DNA from: Novosphingobium sp. FKTRR1
Lineage (GTDB): Bacteria > Pseudomonadota > Alphaproteobacteria > Sphingomonadales > Sphingomonadaceae
Length of the DNA: 64,000 nucleotides
Direction: 5' to 3'
NCBI RefSeq assembly: GCF_020404405.1
Contig: NZ_JAIZDA010000010.1
Coordinates: forward strand, 62,001 to 126,000
The notes under the pieces were generated by a model. That model searched no databases. It worked only from the letters and a program-made list of their open reading frames with translations, and was not told the DNA's origin. The position numbers were made by a program, and so were the translations under genes. This document shows positions 11,912 through 28,624 of this stretch, one piece after another (within the stretch, counting starts at the first letter, position 1; the number at the start of each line of letters is the position of its first letter).

Positions 11912-12189
11912 TCGGGTCGGAACCGGTGACGGAGCGTTCTGCTTCGCTTCGCCGGTTCCCCCCTGCGAACGGATCGCTCCGCCGCCGCTTGCCCCGGTTC
12001 AGCTTGGGTCAACGTGGACGGGACCAACGGAGCGGCCCGTTTGCAAGAACCGCGTAAGTGCGCAGGCAGCAGCGGTTCCGCGTGGTTAAGAATTGGCGAG
12101 TATGTTCGCCACCTCGGGAAAGTACCCCTTGCGCCATCTTGCGCAAGGTTTCCGAAGCCCCACCCTCCCCGGGGGCAAAGGAGTGAATG

Positions 12190-15030
12190 ATGGGTCACGA
12201 CGTGCACGAGTTCGAGCTGGATCTGCTTCAGGAAGGTCCGCAAGCTGGTCCATCATGGGCTTCGCCACGTTGGCCGGTGACCGACGCCGCATCGGGCGAC
12301 GATCTCACCCGTGCGCTCGACCCGATGGCGTTGAAGCTGGAAATCGCCAAGGCGGCCAAGAAGGGCGGCGCGCCCGCGCTTGATGAAGCCGCGCTGGAAC
12401 AGGCCGCCGCCGATTCGATCCGGGCAATGCTGCTCATCCGCACATATCGCGTGCGCGGCCACCTTGCCGCCGACCTCGACCCGCTGGGGCTGGCGCGGCA
12501 GGATCTGCCCGCCGATCTTTCGCCCGAGTATCACGGCATCATCGGCGCCGCGCTCGACCGCAAGGTTTACCTTGGCGGCGTGCTTGGCCTGCAATGGTCG
12601 ACCCCGCGCGAAATCGTGGCGATCCTGCGCAAGAACTATTGCGGCAAGGTCGGCCTTGAATTCATGCACATCTCCGATGTCGAGGAACGCAAGTTCCTGC
12701 AGGACCGGATCGAAGGTGGCGACAAGTCGATCGACTTCACGCCCGAGGGCAAGAAGGCCATCCTTGCCGCCGTGATCCGCGGCGAACAGTACGAAAAGTT
12801 CCTTGGCCGCAAGTACGTCGGCACCAAGCGTTTCGGCCTTGATGGCGGCGAATCGATGATCCCCGCGCTCGAAGCCGTGATCAAGTACGGCGGCTCGAAG
12901 GGCGTGCGCGAGATCATCTACGGCATGGCCCACCGTGGCCGCCTGAACATCCTCGCCAACGTGATGGCCAAGCCCTATCGCGTGATCTTCCACGAGTTCT
13001 CGGGCGGCACCGCCAATCCCGAAGACGTGGGCGGTTCGGGCGACGTGAAGTATCACCTCGGCACCAGTACCGACCGCGAATTCGATGGCATCAAGGTGCA
13101 CATGAGCTTGCAGCCCAACCCCAGCCACCTGGAAACGGTGGACCCGGTCGTGCTGGGCAAGGCGCGCGCGCAGCAGGTGTTCCGCGACGATATCGGCAAG
13201 GGCAAGCACAAGCAGGTGCTGCCCGTACTGATCCACGGCGACGCCGCGTTTGCCGGGCAAGGCATCGTCTGGGAATGCTTCGGCTTTTCGGGGGTGAAGG
13301 GCTACAACACCGGCGGTTGCATCCACTTCATCATCAACAACCAGATCGGCTTCACCACCAGCCCGCAATTCTCGCGCGGGTCGCCCTATCCGTCCGACGT
13401 CGCCAAGGGTGTGCAGGCGCCGATCATCCACATCAACGGCGATGATCCCGAAGCGGTGACCTTTGCCTGCAAGCTGGCGGTCGATTACCGCCAGACCTTC
13501 GGCCGCGACGTGGTGGTCGACATGTGGTGCTATCGCCGCTTTGGCCACAACGAAGGCGACGAGCCCGGCTTCACCCAGCCGCTGATGTACGCCAAGATCC
13601 GTCAGCATCCGCCGATCTCCACGCTCTATGCCAGCCGCCTGACCGAACAGGGCGTGATCGACAAGAACTGGAAGGGCGAAAGCGAGGACCGGTTCGTCGC
13701 CACGCTCGAGGCAGAGTTCGAAGCGGCCAAGAGCTACAAGGCCAACGAGGCCGACTGGTTCGGTGGCCGCTGGTCGGGGCTGAACAAGCCCGCCGACCCG
13801 GTAACCGCCCGCCGCAACGTGCCCACCGGCATCGACCAGAAGCTGTTCGACAGCCTTGGCCGCGTGCTGACCACCGTTCCCGAAGGACTGACCATCCACA
13901 AGACGCTGGGCCGCGTCGTCGATGCCAAGCGCGAGATGTTCGCAACGTCCAAGGGCTTTGACTGGGCAACCGCCGAGGCGCTCGCCTATGGCAGTCTGGT
14001 CACCGAAGGCTTCAACGTGCGCCTGTCGGGGCAGGATTCGGGGCGTGGCACGTTCAGCCAGCGCCACGCCGTGTGGGTCGATCAAACCGACGAGCACAAG
14101 TACGTTCCGCTCGCCACGCTGCCGCACGGCCGCTTCGAGGTGCACGACAGCCCGCTGTCGGAATACGGCGTGCTCGGCTTCGAATATGGCTATGCCAGCG
14201 CCGATCCCAAGACGCTGGTGCTGTGGGAAGCGCAGTTCGGCGACTTTGCCAACGGCGCGCAGATCGTCATCGACCAGTACATTGCCGCGTCGGAAGCCAA
14301 ATGGCTGCGCGCCAACGGCCTCGTGATGCTGCTGCCGCACGGCTATGAAGGGCAGGGTCCGGAACACTCCTCGGCCCGGCTCGAGCGCTATTTGCAACTG
14401 TGCGCCGAAGACAACCTGCAGGTGTGCAACATCACCAGCCCGGCCAACTATTTCCACGTCCTGCGCCGGCAGATGCACCGTCCGTTCCGCAAGCCGCTGA
14501 TCATCATGACTCCCAAGAGCCTGCTGCGCCACGCGCTGGCCAAGTCGGTGGCTTCGGACTTCATCGGCGAAGGCCACTTCCAGCGCATCCTGTCTGACAC
14601 CAACGGCGCGGCCGATGCCGACACCCGCCGCGTGGTGTTGTGCAGCGGCAAGGTTGCCTATGACCTGATCGAGGCGCGCGATGCCGCTGGCCTGACCGAC
14701 ACCCAGATCATCCGCCTTGAACAGCTCTACCCCTTCCCGGGTGAGCCGCTGGCACTGCGTCTGGCGCGCATGCCGCAGCTTGAAGATGTGGTGTGGTGCC
14801 AGGAAGAGCCCAAGAACAACGGCGCCTGGTTCTTTGTCGAACCACTGATCGAGGAATCGCTCAAGGCCGCCAAGGCGAAGGTTCACCGTTCCCGTTATGC
14901 CGGTCGCTCCGCGTCGGCCTCTCCCGCCACCGGGCTTGCCAAGCGCCATGCTGCCGAACAGGCCGCGCTGGTCAGCAACGCCCTTGCCCTCTCTGTCCGT
15001 GGCGAGATCCGCCGCAAGAAGAAAGCCTGA
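12190..15030 (+). CDS. sucA: 2-oxoglutarate dehydrogenase E1 component
   Basis: This thiamine-diphosphate enzyme decarboxylates 2-oxoglutarate and passes the succinyl group to the lipoyl arm of SucB. It has 946 residues. Typical E1o segments are visible: GMAHRGRLNIL, KYHLGTSTDREF, HLETVDPVV, HGDAAFAGQG, NNQIGFTTSP and the ThDP-binding region FGHNEGDEPGFTQP. The pair ATGATG starts at 12187; AAGGAG is only 3 nt from the first ATG and 6 nt from the second, so I use 12190. An in-frame stop directly precedes the start. I do not see the N-terminal helix motif (FL..AN..YI..LY) that binds E2 in E. coli SucA; the chain begins with an acidic stretch and GPQAGPSW instead. Confidence 0.95.
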   Translation: MGHDVHEFELDLLQEGPQAGPSWASPRWPVTDAASGDDLTRALDPMALKLEIAKAAKKGGAPALDEAALEQAAADSIRAMLLIRTYRVRGHLAADLDPLGLARQDLPADLSPEYHGIIGAALDRKVYLGGVLGLQWSTPREIVAILRKNYCGKVGLEFMHISDVEERKFLQDRIEGGDKSIDFTPEGKKAILAAVIRGEQYEKFLGRKYVGTKRFGLDGGESMIPALEAVIKYGGSKGVREIIYGMAHRGRLNILANVMAKPYRVIFHEFSGGTANPEDVGGSGDVKYHLGTSTDREFDGIKVHMSLQPNPSHLETVDPVVLGKARAQQVFRDDIGKGKHKQVLPVLIHGDAAFAGQGIVWECFGFSGVKGYNTGGCIHFIINNQIGFTTSPQFSRGSPYPSDVAKGVQAPIIHINGDDPEAVTFACKLAVDYRQTFGRDVVVDMWCYRRFGHNEGDEPGFTQPLMYAKIRQHPPISTLYASRLTEQGVIDKNWKGESEDRFVATLEAEFEAAKSYKANEADWFGGRWSGLNKPADPVTARRNVPTGIDQKLFDSLGRVLTTVPEGLTIHKTLGRVVDAKREMFATSKGFDWATAEALAYGSLVTEGFNVRLSGQDSGRGTFSQRHAVWVDQTDEHKYVPLATLPHGRFEVHDSPLSEYGVLGFEYGYASADPKTLVLWEAQFGDFANGAQIVIDQYIAASEAKWLRANGLVMLLPHGYEGQGPEHSSARLERYLQLCAEDNLQVCNITSPANYFHVLRRQMHRPFRKPLIIMTPKSLLRHALAKSVASDFIGEGHFQRILSDTNGAADADTRRVVLCSGKVAYDLIEARDAAGLTDTQIIRLEQLYPFPGEPLALRLARMPQLEDVVWCQEEPKNNGAWFFVEPLIEESLKAAKAKVHRSRYAGRSASASPATGLAKRHAAEQAALVSNALALSVRGEIRRKKKA

Positions 15031-15081
15031 GCCACCGTTACCGGGCGCAGGCCCCCCATTCTTCCCAAGGAAACCGCTAAC

Positions 15082-16356
15082 ATGTCCATCGAAGTCAAGG
15101 TTCCGACGCTGGGTGAAAGCGTCAGCGAAGCGACCGTCGGCCAATGGCTGAAGAAGCCCGGCGATGCAGTTGCCGCCGATGAACCGATCGTCAGTCTCGA
15201 AACCGACAAAGTCGCGGTCGATGTACCTGCGCCTGCCGCCGGCATTCTGGGCCAGTTGATCGTCAAGGAAGGCGACACGGTTCTGGTCGGTGCGCTGATC
15301 GCATTGATCGAGAGCGCTGGCTCTGCCGCTGCGGCGGCTCCCGCCGCTACGCCTGCACCTGCTCCAGCCGCTCCCGCCGCTGCAGCGCCCGCCCCGGTGG
15401 CTTCGGCTCCCGCTCCTGCACCTGCCGCCGCTGCACCCGCCGCCATCGGTGACACCGATGCGATCGCGCTGTCGCCCGCGGTGCGCCGCGCGGTGCTGGA
15501 ATACGGGATCGATCCGGCAACGGTGAAGGGTACCGGCAAGGACGGTCGCCTGACCAAGGAAGACGTGCTCGCCGCCGCCACCGCCAAGCAGGGCGCTCCG
15601 GCTGCTCCAGCCGCTGTCGCCGCACCTGCCGCTGCTCCCGTAGCTGCAGTCGCCGGGCGGAACGAGGAGCGCGTCAAGATGACGCGTTTGCGCCAGACCA
15701 TCGCCAAGCGGCTCAAGAGCGCGCAGGAAACCGCCGCACTGCTGACCACGTTCAACGACGTGGACATGACGGCGGTGATGGAAGCGCGCGCCAAGTACAA
15801 GGACGTGTTCGAAAAGAAGCACGGCATCAAGCTTGGCCTGATGAGCTTCTTTGCCAAGGCTTCGGTGCTGGCGCTCAAGGACATTCCCTCGGTCAACGCG
15901 CAGATGCAGGGCGACGAGATCGTCTACTTCGATTACGTCGACATTTCGGTCGCGGTTTCGGCTCCCAACGGGCTGGTCGTGCCGGTGGTGCGCGATGTCG
16001 ACAAGCTGTCGTTCGCAGGCATTGAAAAGGCGATTGCCGAATACGGCAAGAAGGCGCGCGAAGGCACGCTGACGATGGCCGACATGGCCGGCGGCACTTT
16101 CACCATCTCCAACGGCGGCGTGTTCGGAGGGCTGATGTCCACCCCGATCATCAACCCCCCGCAGTCCGCCGTGCTCGGCCTGCACCGCATCGAGGACCGC
16201 CCGGTGGTCCGCAACGGCGAGATCGTGATCCGTCCGATGATGTATCTCGCGCTCAGCTACGACCATCGCATCATTGACGGACGCGAGGCGGTTACCGCAC
16301 TCAAGACCATCAAGGAAGCGATCGAGGATCCCACCCGGTTGCTGATCGATCTTTGA
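15082..16356 (+). CDS. sucB: Dihydrolipoyl succinyltransferase, E2 of 2-oxoglutarate dehydrogenase
   Basis: This enzyme transfers the succinyl group from E1 to CoA. Domain order in 424 residues: lipoyl domain 1-77 with the lipoylated lysine in ETDKVAV (K43); a long Ala/Pro linker to about 125; the E1/E3-binding peripheral domain at about 129-165 ([15 protein letters not shown]); a second Ala/Pro linker; and the catalytic domain from about 195, with the active-site motif [12 protein letters not shown] near 395. The start is 51 bp after sucA, so the two are surely co-transcribed. Succinyl rather than acetyl specificity follows from the pairing with sucA. Confidence 0.96.
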
Positions 16357-16374
16357 TCTGATGGTGTGCAGCAT

Positions 16375-16452
16375 CCTTCGACAAGCTCAGGATGAGCCGG
16401 GGTTGTTGGTGAATTGAATGCCAAGTCCGCTCACCCTGAGCCTGTCGAGGGG
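16375..16452. repeat. REP-like extragenic palindrome between sucB and lpd
   Basis: Two imperfect inverted arms of about 23 bases, 16375-16397 and 16429-16452, carry the core CTTCGACAAGCTCAGG and its complement CCTGAGCCTGTCGAGG, separated by 31 bases. Together they can fold into a long hairpin. I recall repeats with this core as widespread in sphingomonads and some other proteobacteria, usually in intergenic DNA. I see only this one copy here. It lies within the suc-lpd transcription unit and ends 23 bases before the lpd start. Confidence 0.8.
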
Positions 16453-16475
16453 TGCCAGCGCAACGGAGGCCGAAC

Positions 16476-17876
16476 ATGGCTGAATACGATTACGACGTTC
16501 TTGTCATCGGCGCCGGTCCTGGCGGCTATGTCGCGGCGATCCGGGCTGCGCAACTCGGCCTCAAGACCGCCTGCGCCGAAGGGCGCGAGACGCTCGGCGG
16601 CACCTGCCTCAACGTCGGCTGCATTCCCAGCAAGGCCTTGCTGCACGGCTCGGAACTGTACGACCACGCCGCCAACGGTACGATGGCGGGCTATGGCATC
16701 AAGACCGGCCCGGTAGAACTCGACCTTGAAGCCATGCTCGCGCAAAAGACGGACTCGGTGAAGAGCCTGACCGGCGGCATCGAGTTCCTGTTCAAGAAGA
16801 ACAAGGTTACCTGGTTGAAGGGGTATGCCGCGTTCGAGGACGCGCACACCGTCACCGTCGCGGGCCAGAAGGTCACCGCCAAGAACATCGTGATCGCCAC
16901 CGGCTCCAGCGTCACACCGCTGCCCGGCGTGACCGTGGACAACGATGCGGGCGTGATCGTCGACAGCACCGGCGCGCTGTCGCTGAAGAAGGTGCCCGAC
17001 CACCTCGTCGTCATCGGCGGCGGTGTGATCGGGTTGGAACTCGGTTCGGTCTGGCGTCGTCTGGGCGCCAAGGTCACCGTTGTCGAATTCCTCGACCAGT
17101 TGCTGCCCGGCATGGATGGCGACGTGCGCAAGGAAGCCGCCAAGATCTTCAAGAAGCAGGGCCTCGACCTGAAGCTCGGCACCAAGGTGACCGGCGTTGC
17201 GGTCGATGGCGGCAAGGCGACGCTCACCGTCGAACCATCCAAGGGTGGCGAGGCAGCCACCATCGAGGCCGATTGTGTGCTGGTGGCCATTGGCCGCCGT
17301 CCGCATACCGACGGTCTCGGCCTCGACAAGATCGGGCTTGCCGTGAATGCACGCGGCCAGATCGAAACCGACCACGACTTTGCCACCAAGGTCGATGGCG
17401 TGTGGGCGATCGGCGATGTGGTTCCGGGCCCGATGCTGGCGCACAAGGCCGAGGACGAAGGCATTGCCGTGGCTGAAAACATCGCTGGGCTTACCGGCAT
17501 CGTCAACCACGCGGTCATCCCCGGCGTCGTCTACACCGCACCCGAATTCGCCGGTGTCGGGCTGACCGAGGAAGCCGCCCGCGAACTGGGCGAAATCAAG
17601 GTGTCCAAGTTCCCGATGCTGGCCAACAGCCGCGCCAAGACCAACCATGAGCCCGACGGCTTCGTCAAGGTCATCGCCGATGCCAAGACCGACCGCGTGC
17701 TGGGCGTCTGGGCGATCGCCTCGGTGGCCGGCACGATGATCGCCGAAGCCGCGCTGGCCATGGAATTCGGCGCGACCAGCGAGGACATCGCCTATACCTG
17801 CCACGCGCACCCGACGCATTCCGAGGCGCTCAAGGAAGCCGCCATGGGCGTGCGCGGCAAGGCCATCCACATCTGA
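16476..17876 (+). CDS. lpd: Dihydrolipoyl dehydrogenase (E3)
   Basis: This flavoprotein reoxidises the dihydrolipoyl group of SucB and reduces NAD+. The 466 residues show the FAD-binding GAGPGGYVAA near 12-21, the redox disulfide GGTCLNVGC (Cys 44 and 49), the NAD-binding GGGVIGLELG near 180, and the C-terminal catalytic CHAHPTHSEA (His and Glu near 445-450). GGAGG precedes the ATG. Its position after sucAB points to the 2-oxoglutarate dehydrogenase complex, though it could serve other complexes as well. A terminator follows at 17911. Confidence 0.97.
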   Translation: MAEYDYDVLVIGAGPGGYVAAIRAAQLGLKTACAEGRETLGGTCLNVGCIPSKALLHGSELYDHAANGTMAGYGIKTGPVELDLEAMLAQKTDSVKSLTGGIEFLFKKNKVTWLKGYAAFEDAHTVTVAGQKVTAKNIVIATGSSVTPLPGVTVDNDAGVIVDSTGALSLKKVPDHLVVIGGGVIGLELGSVWRRLGAKVTVVEFLDQLLPGMDGDVRKEAAKIFKKQGLDLKLGTKVTGVAVDGGKATLTVEPSKGGEAATIEADCVLVAIGRRPHTDGLGLDKIGLAVNARGQIETDHDFATKVDGVWAIGDVVPGPMLAHKAEDEGIAVAENIAGLTGIVNHAVIPGVVYTAPEFAGVGLTEEAARELGEIKVSKFPMLANSRAKTNHEPDGFVKVIADAKTDRVLGVWAIASVAGTMIAEAALAMEFGATSEDIAYTCHAHPTHSEALKEAAMGVRGKAIHI

Positions 17877-18849: not shown

Positions 18850-20967
18850 TCAAACGCTCTCCAGCGCCTTTTGCAGAGGCAGCGTACGCAGCCGCTTGCC
18901 GGTGGCGGCGAACACCGCGTTGGCCAGCGCCGGGAAGATCACCGCGCACGGTGGTTCACCCATGCCGCCTGGCTTTTCAGTGCTGGTGATCAGCGTGGTC
19001 TCGATGCGCGGCGCTTCGTTCATGCGCAGAACGCGGTAGTCGTGGAAGTTCGATTGTTCGGCCGCACCGCCGTTGAAGGTGACTTCGCCGAACAGCGCTG
19101 CCGAGCCGCCGAACAGCACGCCGCTGTCGATCTGCGCGCGGATGCCCGAGGGGTTGATCGCCTGCCCGCAATCGACCGCGACGGTGACCTTCTTCACGAC
19201 GATCTGCTTGTCCGCCCCCACCGAGACTTGCGCCACGGCCGCCATGTACGTGTCCCAGTTGTGGATCACCGCCACGCCAAGACCTGTGCCAGCCGGTTGC
19301 TTCGTGTTCCAGTCCGACAGCGCGCGGACGGTTTCGAGCGCGTGGCGCGCGCGCGGATCGGTGATCAGCGCCAGACGGTATTCGATGGCATCGCGGCCCA
19401 GTTCGTGCGCCAGTTCGTCGACCAGCGATTCCACCGCAAAAGCGGTACGCAATGGCCCCACGCCGCGCCACCAGCTGGTCGGCACCAGACTTTCGGCCTG
19501 CTGGAAGGTGACCTTGCGCGCGGGCACTTCATAGAGCGGCGCGGTCAGACCATCGACCACATCGTCATCGACACCCTTGAAGGCGGGCCCCATCAGCCGC
19601 GCCATGATCGACGAGCCCGCGATCTTGTGCTCCCACGCGACCGGCTTGCCTTCGGCATCGAGCGCGACGTTGAAGCGATCGGCATAGGCCGGGCGGTACC
19701 AGTCGTGCGCGATGTCCTCCTCGCGCGACCAGATAAGTTTGACCGGCCATGGCACCTTCGCAGCAAGTTGGACCGCGCGTTCGACCATGTCGGTTTCCAG
19801 TCGCCGCCCGAAGCCGCCGCCCATCAGGCGGTTGTGGACGGTAACCTTGTCGAGCGCGAAGCCGAGCGCCTTGGCTGCAGCATCGCGCGCGACCGAAGGA
19901 ACTTGCGTGCCGGTCCACACCGTACAGGCGCCATCCTTGACTTGCGCCACGCAATTGGCGGGTTCCATCGTCGCGTGGGCAAGGAAGGCCTGATGGTATT
20001 CGGCCGAGAACGTGCGCTTGGCCCCGGCCCGCGCCTTGGCCAGATCGCCGTTGTCGACGGCGGCGAAGCCGGGCTTTTCGAGCGCAGCGGCCACCGCGCC
20101 GGTGATCTGCGCGTGAGTGGTCGCCTTGTGCGCCGCGTCGGCGGTCCAGGTGGGCGCTGCGGCGGCGATCCCCTGTTTTGCGGCCCAGGTGTTGTCGGCC
20201 ACGACATAGAGCGCGTCGGACACCTTCACCACCGCGACCACGCCGGGCACGGCCTTGGCGGCCGCCTCATTTGCGGTGGCGAGCGTGCCGCCGAATACCG
20301 GCGACTGGACGATGGCGGCAAACTTCATTCCAGGCACGATCACGTCAATGCCGAATTCGGCCTTTCCGCGCGCCTTGGCCGCACCATCAAGTCGGCGATG
20401 CGGCTTGCCGATGACCTTGTAGTCGCTGGCCCCCAGCACCGGCGCCTCAGTCGGCAGTGGCGCTGCGGCGGCGGCAGTGACCAGCGCGGCATAGGGCAGC
20501 ACTTTGCCGCTGGCCTGATGCACCACCGCGCCGTTGAACGCGTGGCAATCGGCTGCCGAAACCTTCCACTGCGCGGCAGCCGCCTGCACCAGCGCCGCCC
20601 GCGCTTTGGCGCCGGCTTCGCGCAAGGGCTGCCACAGTTCGCGGATCGAAGTGGAACCGCCGGTTTCCTGACTGATCGGCGCAAAGCGCTCCTTGTCGCC
20701 ATCGGCCAATGTGACCACCACATCGGCGGGGGCCACGGCAAGCTCCTCGGCAGCGATCATCGTCACGGCGGTCAGGATGCCCTGCCCCATCTCGGTCTTG
20801 GGCAAGGCCAGCGTGACTTTGCCATCAAGGCCCACGCCGAGCCAGGTGTTGGCGGCCAGCGCCTTTGCCGCTGGCGTGGCAGCGTGCGTGGCAAGTACCG
20901 GCACGGCAAGCGCCCCGGCCGCGAGCGACGATCCAGCGATGAACTGGCGACGACTGGCGCGCATCAT
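18850..20967 (-). CDS. Molybdopterin-binding oxidoreductase large subunit, IorB type
   Basis: A periplasmic molybdenum hydroxylase of the xanthine dehydrogenase superfamily, 705 residues. It begins with a twin-arginine-like signal (SRRQFIAGSSLAAGALAVP), and the mature chain shows the Moco-binding pattern KTEMGQGILTAV near 58-70, MGGGFGRRLE near 390 and the C-terminal KPGGMGEP, where the family carries its active-site glutamate. It is a little shorter than typical IorB proteins. Its ATG overlaps the stop of the iron-sulfur subunit gene. Family members oxidise isoquinoline or aldehydes; the substrate here is unknown. No maturation gene such as xdhC lies nearby. Confidence 0.85.
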   Translation of the reverse strand: MMRASRRQFIAGSSLAAGALAVPVLATHAATPAAKALAANTWLGVGLDGKVTLALPKTEMGQGILTAVTMIAAEELAVAPADVVVTLADGDKERFAPISQETGGSTSIRELWQPLREAGAKARAALVQAAAAQWKVSAADCHAFNGAVVHQASGKVLPYAALVTAAAAAPLPTEAPVLGASDYKVIGKPHRRLDGAAKARGKAEFGIDVIVPGMKFAAIVQSPVFGGTLATANEAAAKAVPGVVAVVKVSDALYVVADNTWAAKQGIAAAAPTWTADAAHKATTHAQITGAVAAALEKPGFAAVDNGDLAKARAGAKRTFSAEYHQAFLAHATMEPANCVAQVKDGACTVWTGTQVPSVARDAAAKALGFALDKVTVHNRLMGGGFGRRLETDMVERAVQLAAKVPWPVKLIWSREEDIAHDWYRPAYADRFNVALDAEGKPVAWEHKIAGSSIMARLMGPAFKGVDDDVVDGLTAPLYEVPARKVTFQQAESLVPTSWWRGVGPLRTAFAVESLVDELAHELGRDAIEYRLALITDPRARHALETVRALSDWNTKQPAGTGLGVAVIHNWDTYMAAVAQVSVGADKQIVVKKVTVAVDCGQAINPSGIRAQIDSGVLFGGSAALFGEVTFNGGAAEQSNFHDYRVLRMNEAPRIETTLITSTEKPGGMGEPPCAVIFPALANAVFAATGKRLRTLPLQKALESV

Positions 20968-21437
20968 GCCTTCTCCCCGGCATGCAGGGCGGCTGCCCGG
21001 TGAATGGCGGTGCGGATGCGCGGATAGGTGCCGCAGCGACAGATGTTGCCCGCCATACCGGCATCGATCGCGGCATCATCAGGCTTGGGATTGTCCTTGA
21101 GCAGCGAGGCTGCAGCGACGATCTGGCCGGGCTGGCAGTATCCGCACTGAACGACATCGACTTCGTCCCATGCGGTGACCAGTGCCTTGCCCAAGGGCTG
21201 TTCGGTCAGCCCTTCGATCGTGGTGATCGCCTTGCCCTGCGCATCGCCCGCTGGCGTCTGGCACGAGAAAGCGCGGGTTCCGTCGATCAGCACGCTGCAC
21301 GCGCCGCACAGGCCCGCCGCGCACCCGAACTTGGTTCCGGTCATCTGCGCCACATCGCGCAACAGCCACAGCAGCGGCATTTCCGCCGGGACATCGAAGC
21401 TGGCAGGCTTGCCATTGATCGTCAGTGTCACGGCCAT
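20964..21437 (-). CDS. [2Fe-2S] subunit of molybdenum oxidoreductase, IorA type
   Basis: The 157-residue electron-transfer subunit partners the large subunit downstream. It carries two [2Fe-2S] clusters: the plant-type ferredoxin cysteines in GCAAGLCGAC with a fourth in FSCQ, and the second cluster in QCGYCQPGQ and NICRCGTYPRI. I chose the ATG at 21437 (MAVTLTING), the usual N-terminus of the family; a longer in-frame extension lacks support. The 4-bp overlap with the large-subunit gene indicates coupled translation. It has no signal and is presumably exported with the Tat-bearing partner. Confidence 0.9.
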   Translation of the reverse strand: MAVTLTINGKPASFDVPAEMPLLWLLRDVAQMTGTKFGCAAGLCGACSVLIDGTRAFSCQTPAGDAQGKAITTIEGLTEQPLGKALVTAWDEVDVVQCGYCQPGQIVAAASLLKDNPKPDDAAIDAGMAGNICRCGTYPRIRTAIHRAAALHAGEKA

Positions 21438-21539
21438 CGCCGGAATTCCCCCAATTATACGTTTGCCGCATGTTGTCGCGGCGCAAACCGTCAAGTCAAG
21501 CTAGCCTGCCCGGCAAGCGCCAACAAGGGCGCGGCGCCC

Positions 21540-22892
21540 TTAGAGCAAGCCCAGATACGTATCGTACTCGAAGCGGTCGATATGGCCAAGGAAAGCCGCG
21601 CGGTCCTGCCGCTTGCAGGCGACATAGATGTCGCGAAAACGCGCGCCGAAGATCGCCTCGGCAAAGATCGAACTGGCGAAGCGGTCGATCGCCACACCCC
21701 ATTCGACCGGCAGCGCAGCCCCGGCGCCGGGGTTGGTCGGATCTTGCGGCGGTGGCGGCGCCACTCCGGCCTCGATACCCTCCAGCATGGCGCCGAGCAT
21801 CGCGGCGGTCGCGATGTAGGCGTTTGCATCGGCTCCCGAAATGCGGTGTTCGATGCGGGTGGAACGAGCGTCGGAATTGATCACGCGCACCGCTGCCGAG
21901 CGGTCATCCACGCCCCAGCCCGCAGACACCGGCGCATGGGCATCAGGCCGGAAGCGCCGGAACGAATTGAAGTTGGGCGCAAAGGCCAGCATCGTTTCGG
22001 GCATCGCCCCAAGCAGGCCGGTTACGGCATGGAGCAGCAGATCGCTTGGCCCGCCCTCGGGCTTGCCCAACACGTTGCGCCCCTTGGTGTCGAGCACGCT
22101 GGCATGGATGTGCATGCCACTGCCCGAGGCATCGCCATAAGGCTTGGCCATGAACGTGGCCCCCAGTCCGTGGACCTTGGCCAGCGTGCGCACCACGCGG
22201 CGCATCAGCATGACGTCATCGGCGGCGGCCAGCGCGTCGGCGCGGTGCAGCAGGTTGAGTTCGAACTGGCCGGGTCCGGCCTCGCTGATTACCCCGTCGG
22301 CGGGAATGCCCAGCGCCGCTGCGGCATCGAATACCGCATCGAAGAACGGTGCATGTTCGGCCAGTGCCGAGGTGGACAGCGTGTCGTTGCGCCGCATGTT
22401 GCCATCGGGCGGCACCGGCACGCCATTTTCGAGCCGGTAGAGATAGAATTCCAGCTCCATCGCCACCACCGGGGTCAACCCTCTGGCAGAATAACGCGCC
22501 AGGACTCGTTCCAGCGCGCCGCGCGGGTCGGACACCACCGGGTTGCCATCAGGATCGCGCATCGTCAGCAAGGCCTGGCCCACGCCATCACCCAGCCACG
22601 GCATGGCGGCAAAACGGCCGGGCACGGCGTAGCACAAGGCGTCGGGATCGCCGGTGCCGAATGCCAGCCCCGCATCCGCCACGTCGCAACCCCACGCATC
22701 TTGCGCGAAGACCGAGATCGGGACCGGCAGACCCTTGGCATCGAGCGAGCCCGCCTTGTCGCGCGCCAGCCATTTGCCCTTTGCGGCGCCGGCAATGTCG
22801 AACACGAACGCTTCGACGCGGGTGATCGCGGTGTGCCTCCCCAGCCACGCGGACAGGGATTGCTGATGCGGCGCGAGAGCATGATTGGTCAT
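21540..22892 (-). CDS. Glutamine synthetase family protein (gamma-glutamyl ligase type)
   Basis: A 450-residue member of the glutamine synthetase family that resembles PuuA/GlnT-type gamma-glutamylamine synthetases more than housekeeping GlnA. Metal and ATP-site segments are visible: MELEFYLY, SEAGPGQFELNLLH, GSGMHIHAS, and the ammonia/glutamate-site region SAAVRVI followed by RIEHRISGADAN. I start at the ATG at 22892; the in-frame upstream extension reads through the regulatory region. It probably attaches glutamate to an amine, but the substrate is unknown. It is divergent from a TonB-dependent receptor, with a palindromic element between them. Confidence 0.82.
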   Translation of the reverse strand: MTNHALAPHQQSLSAWLGRHTAITRVEAFVFDIAGAAKGKWLARDKAGSLDAKGLPVPISVFAQDAWGCDVADAGLAFGTGDPDALCYAVPGRFAAMPWLGDGVGQALLTMRDPDGNPVVSDPRGALERVLARYSARGLTPVVAMELEFYLYRLENGVPVPPDGNMRRNDTLSTSALAEHAPFFDAVFDAAAALGIPADGVISEAGPGQFELNLLHRADALAAADDVMLMRRVVRTLAKVHGLGATFMAKPYGDASGSGMHIHASVLDTKGRNVLGKPEGGPSDLLLHAVTGLLGAMPETMLAFAPNFNSFRRFRPDAHAPVSAGWGVDDRSAAVRVINSDARSTRIEHRISGADANAYIATAAMLGAMLEGIEAGVAPPPPQDPTNPGAGAALPVEWGVAIDRFASSIFAEAIFGARFRDIYVACKRQDRAAFLGHIDRFEYDTYLGLL

Positions 22893-22992
22893 ATCTGTGA
22901 TCCCATAATGGATGGACCCGCCCGCTGTCCAGTCCGCGCCAAAACGGAGCTTGAATAAGGACGGCTCCTCAGGGATGGTCTTGGTCGGCATA

Positions 22993-23106
22993 GATCACAG
23001 ACGTTGCAACAATGCATCATCCCCGCGTCGTCACGAGGCGCAAAGCAGGAAGGCGTTTGACAATCCGGGAGGGAGAGGCAGTTTGTTGCATACATCGTCT
23101 GTGATC
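22993..23106. promoter_or_regulatory. Inverted-repeat operator candidate between the ligase and receptor genes
   Basis: GATCACAGACG at 22993-23003 and its exact reverse complement CGTCTGTGATC at 23096-23106 lie in the divergent intergenic region (22893-23158). Inside each arm, a second shared block TGCAACAA (about 23005-23012, and its complement TTGTTGCA at 23083-23090) follows at slightly different spacing. Each half-site lies between a gene start and the middle of the region: one 100 bp from the ligase ATG, the other 53 bp from the receptor ATG. This is what a shared regulator binding two sites would need. No regulator gene is adjacent. Confidence 0.6.
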
Positions 23107-23158
23107 GCCGATCAGACCGGCTGAGACCGCAGCGACAAGAACCAATGGGGTTGGCAGA

Positions 23159-25600
23159 ATGAAGCGTTCAAAAAAATCGACAGGCCGCAACTGGTTGCTT
23201 TCCGGCACGGCGTCTTGCCTTGCCATGCTGGCCCCGGTTGCCGCCATTGCGCAGGAGGCAGCCCCAGCCCCCGCGCCTGCCTCGGGCGATCAGGTTGCCG
23301 CCGGTGCGGATGCGCAGCAAGGCCTTGGCGAGATCGTGGTCACCGCCACCCGTCGTTCCGAAAGCATCCAGAAGGTGCCGATCAGCCTTCAGGCGTTGAC
23401 GCCCGAAAAACTGGAACAGCGGCAGGTCAACAGCTTCTCCGACTATGTCACGCTGCTGCCCAGCGTCAGCTACGCATCGCTCGGGCCGGGCCGCTCGGAC
23501 CTGTTCTTCCGCGGGATCGCCGTGGATGGCGGCCAGCTTTCGACCGCAGGCACCTATCTTGACGACATTCCGCTGACCACCGCCGGGCGCATGCCCGAAA
23601 TCCACGTCTATGACATGGCCCGAGTCGAGGCGCTGTCCGGCCCGCAGGGTACGCTGTTCGGCTCAAGCTCGCTGTCTGGCACGCTGCGACTGATCACCAA
23701 CAAGCCGGATTTCAGCAAGTTCTCTGCCGGCTATGACGTCGAGGCGAACAAGTATGGCAAGGGCGATGCCGGCCATATGGAGGAAGGCTTCGTCAACGTG
23801 CCACTGGCCGACAATCTGGCGGTGCGGCTGGTCGGCTTCTATCGCCACGATGGCGGTTACATCGACAACACGGCGGGTTCGCACACCTACCAGCTTGGCG
23901 ATGATGATCCATCAACGTCGATCACCATTACCAACAAGGACATGGTCAAGGACAACTACAATCCGGTGACCGAGTACGGCGGCCGCGCTGCGCTGGCCTG
24001 GCAACCGGCGCCCGATTGGACGGTCTCGCCGCAGTTCGTCTATCAGTACCTGAACGCGCAAGGCGGCTTCAATTACGACCCGCGCGTGGGCGATCTCAAG
24101 GTTCATGACTTCCATGAAACCTACAACAAGGACGAATGGTATCAGGCGGCGCTGACCGTGACCGGCAAGATCGCCGATTTCGATGTCGTGTCGTCGACCG
24201 GATACTTCAAGCGGCGGATCAAGAATGCCAACGACTACACTTATTACACGGTGTTCTATGACAGTCAGGGTCCGGGTTATGAAGCCTATCTCCAGTTCCG
24301 CAACAAGGCGGGCAACCTGATCGATCCGACCCAGCAATATTTCGGCAACAACACCAACCGCAAGTTCACGCAGGAACTGCGTATCTCCGTGCCGAAGTCG
24401 TGGCCCTTCAGCCTGACGGTGGGCGGCTTCTATCAATGGCAGAAAAACGAGTTCAACGAGGACTACTACATCCCCGGCCTGCACGATGCGACCAACGTGG
24501 ATGGCGGAACCTCGTACTTGCGGCGCGATGCGTTCTACCTCACCGAAGTTGACCGCATCTTCAAGGACTACGCGTTGTTTGCCGAAGGCACCTACGAAGT
24601 GGTGCCGCATGTGAAGGTGACCGGCGGCATCCGCCTGTTCCGGGCAAAGAACGAAAGCCACGGCTTCGAAGGGGTGCAAAGCACCGCTTTGGCGGCCGGC
24701 TGCACAACTCCGTTCACCGGACCGCGCGTGACCACGTGCGACAACGTCACCGTGGCCAATCCCTACAACGAATCGGGCGAAACGCACAAAGTCAGCGTCG
24801 CGTGGCAGGTGGCGTCGGACAAGATGGTCTATGCCACGTACTCGACCGGTTTCCGCCCCGGTGGCAGCAACACGATCGCGCCCGATCACCCCTACAAGGC
24901 GGACCGGCTGACCAACTTCGAGCTTGGCTTCAAGACCGCGTGGGGACCGAACTTCCGCTTCAACCTCGCCGCCTATTATGAAAAGTGGAAGGGCATCCAG
25001 TATTCGGTCGTGCCATCCGGCTTCCAGGGCAACGGCCTTACCCTCAACGCCGGCGACGGCCGGGTCTATGGCGTCGAAGCTGACTTCGACTGGCGGTTGG
25101 GTCCGCTCTCGATCTCGGGCTCGGGCGCGTACAACGACGCGGCGCTTTCCAGCGATTTCTGCAACCTGACCGGACCGGGAAGCACCGAGCAGTTCGCCGC
25201 ATGCACGGGCGAGCCGGACAAGATTGCGGCGGCCAACGGCACCCGCCTACCGCGCCAGCCCAAGTTCAAGGGCACGATGGTCGCGCGCTATGGCTTCAGC
25301 CTCGGCAGCCTCGACTCTTTCGTTCAGGCCGCCGCCAACCACCAGTCGAGCAGCACGTCGAACCTCGACACGTTCAAGAACAGCCTGCTGGGCGATACTC
25401 CGGGCTTTTCCAGCTTCGACTTCTCGGCCGGCGTGTCCAAGGCCAACTGGAATGCCGAGATCTTCCTGCAGAACGCCTTCGACAAGCGTGGGCAGCTCTC
25501 GAAGAACACCTTCTGCGCGATCGAGGTCTGTTCGGGATCGAGCCGCACCCTGCCGATCAAGCCGCAATTCTTCGGCATCCGCTTCGGCCAGAAGTTCTAA
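23159..25600 (+). CDS. TonB-dependent outer-membrane receptor
   Basis: An 813-residue receptor with a signal peptide ending near AIAQE (about residue 32), an Ala/Pro linker, a TonB-box-like segment GEIVVTATRRSES near 57-70, a plug domain with the RGIAVDGGQ and GPQGTLFGSSSLSGTLRLI motifs, and a long barrel ending FGIRFGQKF. It is of the FecA/CirA-like type abundant in sphingomonads. The ligand is unknown. The divergent gamma-glutamyl ligase suggests a nitrogenous compound, but that is guesswork. Confidence 0.92.
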   Translation: MKRSKKSTGRNWLLSGTASCLAMLAPVAAIAQEAAPAPAPASGDQVAAGADAQQGLGEIVVTATRRSESIQKVPISLQALTPEKLEQRQVNSFSDYVTLLPSVSYASLGPGRSDLFFRGIAVDGGQLSTAGTYLDDIPLTTAGRMPEIHVYDMARVEALSGPQGTLFGSSSLSGTLRLITNKPDFSKFSAGYDVEANKYGKGDAGHMEEGFVNVPLADNLAVRLVGFYRHDGGYIDNTAGSHTYQLGDDDPSTSITITNKDMVKDNYNPVTEYGGRAALAWQPAPDWTVSPQFVYQYLNAQGGFNYDPRVGDLKVHDFHETYNKDEWYQAALTVTGKIADFDVVSSTGYFKRRIKNANDYTYYTVFYDSQGPGYEAYLQFRNKAGNLIDPTQQYFGNNTNRKFTQELRISVPKSWPFSLTVGGFYQWQKNEFNEDYYIPGLHDATNVDGGTSYLRRDAFYLTEVDRIFKDYALFAEGTYEVVPHVKVTGGIRLFRAKNESHGFEGVQSTALAAGCTTPFTGPRVTTCDNVTVANPYNESGETHKVSVAWQVASDKMVYATYSTGFRPGGSNTIAPDHPYKADRLTNFELGFKTAWGPNFRFNLAAYYEKWKGIQYSVVPSGFQGNGLTLNAGDGRVYGVEADFDWRLGPLSISGSGAYNDAALSSDFCNLTGPGSTEQFAACTGEPDKIAAANGTRLPRQPKFKGTMVARYGFSLGSLDSFVQAAANHQSSSTSNLDTFKNSLLGDTPGFSSFDFSAGVSKANWNAEIFLQNAFDKRGQLSKNTFCAIEVCSGSSRTLPIKPQFFGIRFGQKF

Positions 25601-25736: not shown

Positions 25737-25813
25737 GGCGGAGTAGCTCAGCCGGTTAGAGCAGCGGAATCATAATCCGCGTGTCGGGGGTTCGAGTCCC
25801 TCCTCCGCTACCA
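25737..25813 (+). tRNA. tRNA-Met (anticodon CAT)
   Basis: A complete cloverleaf with genome-encoded CCA. The acceptor GGCGGAG pairs with CTCCGCT (G1-U72 wobble), the D arm is GCTC...GAGC, the anticodon stem GCGGA/TCCGC encloses the loop ATCATAA (anticodon CAT), and the T arm carries GTTCGAG. CAT occurs in initiator Met, elongator Met and lysidine-modified Ile tRNAs. The sequence looks like the alphaproteobacterial elongator Met type, but tRNA-Ile2 cannot be fully excluded. The 236 bp after it, up to 26049, holds no gene I can support. Confidence 0.9.
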
Positions 25814-26695: not shown

Positions 26696-28534
26696 TTACC
26701 AGCCGCAGGAACGGCCCTTGTTCTGCGTTTCCAGCCACTTCTGCAATGGTGCGAAGTAACGGACCAGCGAAGCGCCGCTTATCTGGCGGCTACCGGTAAA
26801 CGCTTCGAGCGCATCGGGCCACGGCTTTGACGCGCCCATGCTGAGCATCGCATCAAGCTTCTGACCCACCGCCTTGTTGCCATAGAAGCTGCAACGGTGC
26901 AGCGGCCCGGTCCATCCGGCCTGCTTGCACGCCGCTTCGTAGAACTGGAACTTGAGCACGCCCGCCAGGAAATAGCGGGTGTAGGGCACCACCGCCGGCA
27001 CATGGAACTTGGCGCCGGGATCGAAGGCATCGGCACCACGCTCGACCGGCGGCACGATGCCCTGATACTGGCGACGCAGATCGTTCCACGCGGCCTCATA
27101 GCCCTCGGGCTTGACCTTGCCGCTGAACACGCCCCAGCGCCAGCGATCGACCAGCAGGCCAAACGGCAGGAACGCCACCTGGTTGAGCGCCTGACGCAGC
27201 AGCAGACCGGTGTCCTTGTCCGGTCCCGGCACCTTGGCGCGATCGAGCAGGCCGATCTGGACGAGGTATTCGGGCGTGATCGACAGCGCCATGGTATCGC
27301 CGATCGCTTCGTGGAAGCCATCGTTGGCGCCTTCCATGTACCAGCGCGAAGGCTGGTTGCTGTAGGCGCGCTGATAGTAGTTGTGGCCCAGTTCGTGGTG
27401 GATCGTCACGAAGTCGTCGGAATTGACCTTGGTGCACATCTTGATGCGCAAGTCCGACTTGTTGTCGATATCCCAAGCCGAGGCGTGGCACACCACTTCG
27501 CGATCGCGCGGCTTGGTGATCTGCGCGCGTTCCCAGAAGGTTGCGGGCAACGGCGCAAAGCCGAGCGAGGAATAGAAGCCCTCGCCTGCCTTGACCATCT
27601 TGACCGGGTCATAGCCCTTGGCGGTCAAAAGATCGCCGATGTCATAGCCAAGATCGCCCGCACCGGCCGGAGCCACCACGTCATAGATGTTGCCCCAGCT
27701 CTGCCCCCACATGTTGCCAAGCAAGTCACCACGGATCGGGCCGGACTTGCCCTGCACGGCATCGCCGTACTTCGCGTTCAGCTTTGCGCGGGTATAGCAG
27801 TGCAGTTGCAGGTACAGCGGCTTGACCTCGCCCCAGATCTTGTCGGTCAAGGTGGCGAAGGCATCCGGGTCCATGTCGTAGTTCGAACGCCACTGCGCCC
27901 CCACATCGGCAAAGCCCAGTTCGCGCGCGCCCTGATTGGCGATCTCGACCATGCGCACGTAGTCGGCCTTCATCGGCTTGCCGACGGCGTCGTGCCACGA
28001 AATCCACATCTCGCGCGTTTCATCGGGGTTGCGGCTGGTGCCCATCGCGGCCTCGATGTCGCTGCCGTTGATCGGCTGGCCCTTCAAAGTGCCCTTGCCC
28101 TTGCCGTAAAGGCCCTGAATGCGCGCCTGCAGCCGCGCGAATTCGGCGCCCAGGGCAGGATCGGCGGGCACCGGGCTGGTGATGCCGGTGCGGATCATCA
28201 CCAGCTTTCGCTGCACTTCGGGCGAAAGACCGGGAACCTTTGCATAACCGGCCGCTTGCGTCGCCAGTTCGACCTGCAGCGCGCTCATCGCCGCGTTGGT
28301 ATCGGCGGCCAGCGATTCGGTATCATCGGTTATGTAGGTTTCAGCGATCCATTCGTTGCGCCCGGCGATCACGGTCTGGTCGAAGTATGCCTTGTCAGCC
28401 TTGGCCAGCCAGGCATCGACCGTAGCGGGGGTGACAGGCGAAGAAGCTGGCCCTGTCGGGGCTGCATCGGCGGCAAAGGCGGGCTGGGCCAGCATGGCAA
28501 GGGCCAGCGCAAGCAGCGAAGCACGGGTGTTCAT
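26696..28534 (-). CDS. M2-family zinc metallopeptidase (ACE-like peptidyl-dipeptidase)
   Basis: A 612-residue exported peptidase. The signal peptide is MNTRASLLALALAMLAQPAF with cleavage near FAADA. The zinc motif HHELGHNYYQ (HExxH) lies about 375-385 residues in, and the third ligand is the glutamate in NDGFHEAIGD about 24 residues later, as in angiotensin-converting enzyme and bacterial M2 peptidases. It is expected to remove dipeptides from peptide C-termini in the periplasm. I use the ATG at 28534, which has GAGG upstream; one five codons earlier is possible. Neighbours give no substrate clue. Confidence 0.92.
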   Translation of the reverse strand: MNTRASLLALALAMLAQPAFAADAAPTGPASSPVTPATVDAWLAKADKAYFDQTVIAGRNEWIAETYITDDTESLAADTNAAMSALQVELATQAAGYAKVPGLSPEVQRKLVMIRTGITSPVPADPALGAEFARLQARIQGLYGKGKGTLKGQPINGSDIEAAMGTSRNPDETREMWISWHDAVGKPMKADYVRMVEIANQGARELGFADVGAQWRSNYDMDPDAFATLTDKIWGEVKPLYLQLHCYTRAKLNAKYGDAVQGKSGPIRGDLLGNMWGQSWGNIYDVVAPAGAGDLGYDIGDLLTAKGYDPVKMVKAGEGFYSSLGFAPLPATFWERAQITKPRDREVVCHASAWDIDNKSDLRIKMCTKVNSDDFVTIHHELGHNYYQRAYSNQPSRWYMEGANDGFHEAIGDTMALSITPEYLVQIGLLDRAKVPGPDKDTGLLLRQALNQVAFLPFGLLVDRWRWGVFSGKVKPEGYEAAWNDLRRQYQGIVPPVERGADAFDPGAKFHVPAVVPYTRYFLAGVLKFQFYEAACKQAGWTGPLHRCSFYGNKAVGQKLDAMLSMGASKPWPDALEAFTGSRQISGASLVRYFAPLQKWLETQNKGRSCGW

Positions 28535-28624
28535 CGGGGGCATCCTCATGGCTCATGGCGGCGGGACGGCGCGAAGTCGGCCGTTCGCGGATGAACGCTC
28601 TGGTGCCGCGCCCGATACCTCAGG

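Follow-up and report, generated by a model that had tools for sequence, protein, structure and literature searches.

The window analysed here (the whole stretch of 64,000 nucleotides from Novosphingobium sp. FKTRR1) contains two divergent genes, one for a glutamine-synthetase-like ligase (GS1) and the other for a TonB-dependent receptor. An original prediction had pointed to an exact 11-bp inverted repeat between them, each arm accompanied by a shared inner block, and had proposed a pair of binding sites for one regulator controlling the import and glutamylation of one compound. The genes, putative promoter elements and predicted operators are the following, with the candidate regulator on another contig of the same genome (G000) given last:

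18850-20967, minus strand: molybdopterin-binding subunit of a xanthine-dehydrogenase-type oxidoreductase (MoCoBD_1 128 bits, MoCoBD_2 100 bits)
20964-21494, minus strand: [2Fe-2S] subunit of that same oxidoreductase, 3' of the ligase (Fer2_2 92 bits)
21540-22892, minus strand: glutamine-synthetase-like ligase GS1 (Gln-synt_C 276 bits)
22896-22905, minus strand: predicted operator O1 of the ligase, TGGGATCACA, a 9/10 match to the palindrome TGTGATCACA
22902-22907, minus strand: putative ligase -10, TATGGG, overlapping O1 (spacer 18 bp)
22926-22931, minus strand: putative ligase -35, TGGACA, kept in most of 13 ortholog promoters (by eye)
22990-22999, minus strand: predicted operator O2, receptor-distal, TGTGATCTAT, antisense to the receptor (left arm of the repeat, 22993-23003)
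23005-23012, plus strand: inner block TGCAACAA, left copy, in 0/6 relatives and probably incidental
23057-23062, plus strand: putative receptor -35, TTGACA, invariant in 7/7 aligned promoters
23080-23085, plus strand: putative receptor -10, AGTTTG (weak), assigned by position only, 17 bp after TTGACA
23083-23090, minus strand: inner block, right copy, overlapping the putative receptor -10, in 0/6 relatives
23100-23109, plus strand: predicted operator O3, receptor-proximal, TGTGATCGCC, downstream of the putative -10 (right arm of the repeat, 23096-23106)
23159-25600, plus strand: TonB-dependent receptor (TonB barrel 97 bits, Plug 53 bits)
G000:C5:37179-37877: P0004, candidate regulator of the GntR family, FCD subfamily, divergent from the gene of a PuuC-like aldehyde dehydrogenase

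Elsewhere in the window, genes for a 2-oxoglutarate dehydrogenase E1, an E2 acyltransferase and a pyridine nucleotide-disulphide oxidoreductase stand in series at 12187-17876 (plus strand), a tRNA-Met (cat) at 25737-25813 (plus strand) separates the receptor gene from those that follow, and a peptidase of family M2, the angiotensin-converting-enzyme family, is encoded at 26696-28549 (minus strand, 687 bits).

The inverted repeat itself was confirmed as first described. GATCACAGACG at 22993-23003 returns as its exact reverse complement at 23096-23106, leaving a gap of 92 bp, and the inner blocks TGCAACAA (23005-23012) and TTGTTGCA (23083-23090) lie 1 bp and 5 bp off the arms. A repeat finder additionally returned TCTGTGATC at 22894-22902, a third core copy that the original prediction had overlooked. 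An 11-bp inverted repeat is by itself ordinary in 64 kb and not special: the window holds 10 of them with loops of at most 120 bp, as compared with 1 to 13 in each of 10 dinucleotide-shuffled versions. For the 266-bp intergenic region, an 11-bp inverted repeat appeared in 34 of 5000 shuffles, and three copies of any 9-mer in 9 of 5000. The heptamer TGTGATC is present in 443 copies genome-wide, from which 0.024 would be expected per 266 bp between start codons, as against the 3 seen; with so common a sequence, most genomic copies must be non-functional. The case for function is thus built on conservation in relatives and not on the repeat.

The 4.98-Mb assembly holds no copies of the 11-mer beyond the two arms. 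In relatives it was absent from the ligase orthologs (21 loci, some contigs being counted twice) and was found in just one of six receptor promoters, that of G008. Since the 11-mer is so rare there, the analysis was moved to a shorter sequence, the degenerate palindrome TGTGATCACA, whose core is conserved both at the ligase orthologs and at the receptor promoters. The refuting condition given with the original prediction, a lack of the motif before orthologous gene pairs, applies in part only, to the exact 11-mer and not to the core palindrome. TGTGATCACA is the conserved element, with three copies in the intergenic region rather than the two originally proposed. The inner block TGCAACAA, once regarded as part of the sites, was dropped as a second binding element, neither orientation occurring in any of 6 relatives.

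The longest open reading frame would place the start of GS1 at 22991. This start is probably wrong and was rejected in favour of the ATG at 22892, because the ATGs of the orthologs directly abut the palindrome, with TGGACA at a near-fixed distance in most of them. At least 9 of the 10 bases of TGTGATCACA stand just before the ATG in 11 of 13 ligase ortholog loci, and in the other two (L041 and L043) the palindrome at the start codon is lost. These 13 upstream regions (59 to 76% identity) come from Novosphingobium and other Sphingomonadales, and the set omits L036, where the contig ends at the gene, and L010. In most of the 13, TGGACA was found by eye about 17 bp before TATGTG. In the window, O1 overlaps the putative ligase -10 and its end lies 3 bp before the ATG; this promoter geometry suggests a transcript that would be leaderless or carry a very short leader.

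On the receptor side, seven promoters were aligned: those of the window, G008, G013, G044, G147, G117 and G039. TTGACA and TCTGTGATC are unchanged in all seven, and the O3-type operator is centred 47-49 bp from the first T of TTGACA in every one, while the base sequence of the putative -10 varies among the relatives. O2 and O3 fit well to only one half of the palindrome. A proximal site in the sense direction is paired with an antisense distal one in 6/7 promoters; in the exception, G039, the second core runs in the sense direction and lies within the neighbouring gene. G008 has GTCTGTGATCTATGC as its distal site, identical to the window's left arm, 11-mer included. The spacing to the second site in the seven promoters is 110, 122, 220, 211, 215, 233 and 235 bp, and no helical phasing of the pair was found across this range of 110-235 bp. 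Since the same pair occurs in relatives whose receptor lies away from GS1, the two arms of the repeat form the receptor's own pair. The proposal of one site facing each divergent gene was therefore abandoned: the receptor promoter accounts for both arms, and the ligase has its own O1 at 22896-22905. In a wider count of receptor homologs, the core was found within 350 bp upstream in 7/7 loci from genomes with an ortholog of the candidate GntR regulator versus 1/23 others, these being the 30 loci listed among 58 genomes with a match, with the start of one (L118) extrapolated over 246 residues.

The adjacency of receptor and ligase was rejected as a conserved gene pair. No receptor match (E 1e-10) was found at 16 relative ligase loci, searched together with 1.5 to 5 kb of flanking DNA as far as the contigs reach. 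The receptor adjoins SBP-GS2-DAO genes in G008, G013, G044, G147, G117 and G039. In G008 and G013, about 7 and 10 kb separate GS1 from the receptor start, and the receptor is encoded on the opposite strand, downstream of a series encoding an FAD oxidase (DAO), a second ligase (GS2) and a PotD-like binding protein; the interval between receptor and GS1 contains these genes and Pot-like ABC genes, and in G013 also PuuD- and PuuC-like genes. In the window genome the pathway genes are scattered, with DAO, GS2 and PotD-like on contig C28, Pot-like ABC, GntR and PuuC-like on C5, and PuuD-like on C14. The simplest reading, in which we infer the order of events, is that a rearrangement joined the receptor and GS1, the sites moving with their genes.

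A search of the genome with TGTGATCACA returned 40 places, 3 of them exact and 37 with one mismatch. One exact copy (C28:21125) precedes the DAO-GS2-PotD-like operon in a layout that resembles that of GS1, namely TTGACC, 17 bp, TATATG, palindrome and ATG, and another (C14:381794) lies before a gene pair for an FAD oxidoreductase and the PuuD-like protein, in this order. One-mismatch palindromes precede the PuuC-like (C5:38172) and PotH-like (C5:30491) genes. Judged from the predicted gene functions, the palindrome precedes further genes of a gamma-glutamyl-amine pathway. The enzyme names are best matches and do not settle the substrate, since GS1, GS2, DAO and the PuuC-, PuuD-, PotD- and PotH-like proteins all (7/7) score under the NCBIfam equivalog cut-offs. 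Against the gamma-glutamylputrescine synthetase model NF045547 (cut-off 650 bits), GS1 reached 172.9 bits and GS2 187.2 bits, GS1 being described here as a glutamine-synthetase-like ligase. The PuuC-like protein gave 565.8 bits with NF007352 (cut-off 850), still the best of 43 matches, and best matches below the cut-off were also obtained for the PuuD-like protein with NF008471 (140 bits, cut-off 266) and the PotD-like protein with NF007048 (191.9 bits, cut-off 582). A control with the reversed pattern (1 place versus 40 for TGTGATCACA, 15 copies versus 443 for TGTGATC) was set aside because the reversed pattern contains CTAG, a tetranucleotide of low frequency in many bacterial genomes.

The remaining exact copy of the palindrome, at G000:C14:322393-322402 (L154, L180), lies 20 bp before the start of an alanine dehydrogenase gene, with an AsnC-type regulator gene in divergent orientation. 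It may be either a member of the regulon or a chance hit.

The best candidate for the regulator is P0004, a protein with a GntR domain (59.1 bits, cut-off 27) and an FCD domain (79.9 bits, cut-off 24.3), which place it in the FCD subfamily of the GntR family. The solved structure closest to it by sequence is that of McbR (YncC) of E. coli (PDB 4p9f, E 6e-22, residues 24-214). Based on an alignment on the motif SRTPVR, we take the base-reading Arg45 of the Agrobacterium repressor Atu1419 to correspond to Gln61 of P0004. In a sample of 149 genomes of the genus, P0004 orthologs (at least 65% identity) are present in 10/10 genomes with a GS1 ortholog (71% identity or more) versus 1/139 others, a co-occurrence that is confounded by shared ancestry and weaker than its Fisher value would imply, as the ten ligase genomes may amount to one subclade. 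The eleventh genome with a P0004 ortholog, G039, carries both the receptor and GS2. In G099 and G057 the P0004 ortholog directly adjoins GS1. Within 350 bp ahead of the match, 7/11 P0004 ortholog loci have the core and the other 4 lack it, so autoregulation is not general. By this comparative evidence, P0004 is most likely the single reader of the sites. Paired sites for one regulator had been the original proposal, and that part stands as predicted sites with one most likely regulator. The further claim, that this regulator spans ligase and receptor, hence glutamylation and probably import, agrees with the conservation of the palindrome at both genes.

In two genomes, G057 and G099 (L205, L206), a second GntR paralog with 38-39% identity has several perfect TGTGATCACA sites. 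As both genomes also contain the P0004 ortholog, the two proteins may cross-talk there.

Paralogous ligases provide a separate comparison. Ten genomes of the genus encode a different ligase (37-40% identity to GS1) whose divergent neighbour is a GntR gene (38-40% to P0004), and a perfect TGTGATCACA lies between the two in 10/10, most of these sites being near-identical in context and hence not ten independent events. Ten other glutamine synthetase relatives from the same list had no TGTGATCACA at 9/10 bases or better (0/10). In 86 more distant upstream regions, TGTGATCACA ranked first among 30 palindrome permutations (17 loci with at least 9/10 bases, 11 exact), and the second, GTGATATCAC (12 loci, 1 exact), led to the variant TGTGATA. 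Over the distant loci as a whole, a 9/10 match to TGTGATCACA was not tied to the presence of a GntR gene (4/36 with, 3/30 without).

Among the distant, mostly Rhodobacterales GntR-ligase pairs (L045-L112), TATCACA was the commonest 7-mer, found in 27 of 30 upstream regions; these 30 are the ones, out of 36 loci with a GntR match, in which the GntR gene lies directly upstream by position.

The operator variants were compared with residue 62 of the recognition helix, P0004 orthologs being omitted from the counts. With Met at this position, TGTGATC prevails in 12 loci and TGTGATA in 0, and with Thr, TGTGATA prevails in 21 and TGTGATC in 3; the remainder comprises 5 ties with Thr, 3 Thr and 1 Met loci with neither variant, and 2 Gln loci with TGTGATC. 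In these alignments, residue 62 covaries with the operator, a covariation confounded by shared ancestry, as Met/Thr largely tracks lineage. We take residue 62 of P0004, by alignment, to be position 39 of the helix-turn-helix of the FadR subfamily. In that subfamily, according to excerpts of PMC4494728, position 39 correlates with the central operator bases, with a trend of Thr to A/T that was not significant; in HutC, Met leans to A/T, also not significantly.

Considering these data together, the sites are quite probably operators of one regulon, serving to take up amines (most likely polyamines) and to degrade them by a gamma-glutamylation-type route; the operators would be read by P0004 and the genes repressed until a ligand releases the protein. 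The sites, where they lie, how they are conserved, their co-occurrence with the GntR gene and the covariation of recognition helix and operator are observations of this analysis; we infer that P0004 is the protein that binds, that it represses and does not activate, what its ligand and the cargo of the receptor would be, and that sites might co-operate or loop. P0004, presumably as a dimer, would bind the degenerate palindrome TGTGATCACA. At the ligase promoter, the bound protein would lie over the -10/+1 region and block initiation, and at the receptor promoter it would occupy the proximal site just downstream of the putative -10, with the site of opposite orientation about 110 bp upstream. 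A repressor covering -10/+1 of GS1 and the stretch after the receptor -10 would be the simplest reading of these positions. An amine or a glutamylated amine would then free the bound protein from its operators; PuuR and PauR suggest, by analogy, a pathway amine as the probable inducer (excerpts of PMC7901475).

At the receptor, the distal site may contribute co-operation or looping, by analogy with Atu1419 of Agrobacterium fabrum, a VanR-type GntR/FCD repressor that is a tetramer and for which a loop was seen by electron microscopy (excerpts of PMC7797058). That a GntR tetramer joins the two receptor sites by a DNA loop in the same way is possible, and we regard it as doubtful. The geometry resembles that of Atu1419, with 10-bp palindromes, one at the -10 and the second 190 or 109 bp away (excerpts of PMC7797058), and a second core is present upstream in 7/7 receptor promoters, irregular in G039; however, the spacings are not multiples of one helical turn, and the distal site could act alone.

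It is improbable that the operators of this regulon are read by a different protein, either an XRE-cupin regulator of the PuuR/PauR type or the LysR or AsnC regulators encoded near other sites. XRE-cupin proteins do control the gamma-glutamylation pathway in Pseudomonas and E. coli (excerpts of PMC7901475), and G000 encodes at least one XRE-cupin candidate (C22, L172, found with the Cupin_2 model). Moreover, the AsnC gene by the alanine dehydrogenase and a LysR gene by a C26 peptidase flank two palindrome sites. However, homologs of these three proteins (E 1e-10) numbered 0 in 23 cluster stretches of relatives versus 12 GntR hits, a GntR count that is partly by construction, as several of the stretches were chosen for their GntR hit. 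The paralogous GntR-ligase pairs sharing the palindrome in 10/10 genomes and the covariation of the recognition-helix residue with the operator also speak against another regulator.

TGTGA and TCACA are CRP half-sites, and control by a global regulator of the CRP/FNR type (TGTGA-N6-TCACA) was considered for this reason. It is highly unlikely, since the half-sites abut here instead of being separated by a 6-bp spacer and a global regulator would be expected to have more than the three exact palindromes that the genome holds. A chance repeat with no function is the least credible explanation, because however ordinary an 11-bp inverted repeat may be in a 64-kb window, this one is conserved in position and sequence among relatives.

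Under the preferred reading, in which P0004 controls an amine regulon, the repeats lead to a testable set of one predicted regulator with some seven target promoters predicted across four contigs, and to the concrete prediction that the TonB receptor serves amine uptake. The variants Met/TGTGATC and Thr/TGTGATA would also offer a natural series for studies of GntR specificity. A broader proposal is put forward tentatively and with limited confidence: that the XRE-cupin PuuR/PauR has been replaced, in the alphaproteobacterial group studied here, by a GntR/FCD protein as master repressor of gamma-glutamyl-polyamine breakdown; that a dedicated TonB receptor has been included in the regulon, in which case a polyamine or a larger amine conjugate would be taken up across the outer membrane by energised transport; and that within this protein family one recognition-helix residue (Met/Thr) has switched the operator between TGTGATC and TGTGATA.

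In open-licence PubMed Central, no description was found of a GntR regulon for polyamines or gamma-glutamyl compounds or with such an operator. A search for the string TGTGATCACA there gave nothing on the subject among the papers listed, the sphingomonad occurrence being a cloning primer. GntR/FCD regulons are a well-known kind; what appears to be new is this particular member, together with its operator and the presence of a TonB receptor in the regulon.

Among known systems, as described in excerpts of PMC7797058, Atu1419 shares with the present case a GntR/FCD regulator (here a candidate), 10-bp palindromic operators overlapping a promoter and a degradation pathway; it differs in its palindrome, ATGTATACAT rather than TGTGATCACA, and in its pathway, which is that of hydroxycinnamates. 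The PauR and PuuR regulons, according to excerpts of PMC7901475, are similar in that one repressor governs scattered gamma-glutamylation genes (ligase, FAD oxidase, aldehyde dehydrogenase and uptake), whereas PauR and PuuR are XRE-cupin proteins and here the candidate is GntR/FCD and the predicted regulon includes an outer-membrane TonB receptor. With regard to the operator, T-GT-GATC-AC-A fits the GntR family consensus NyGTNxACNy, O2 and O3 doing so imperfectly (excerpts of PMC4494728). In contrast to sites of the FadR subfamily, in which GT and AC are 2-3 bp apart, those of TGTGATCACA are 4 bp apart, a spacing which in the same excerpts (PMC4494728) is that of most HutC sites and not of FadR.
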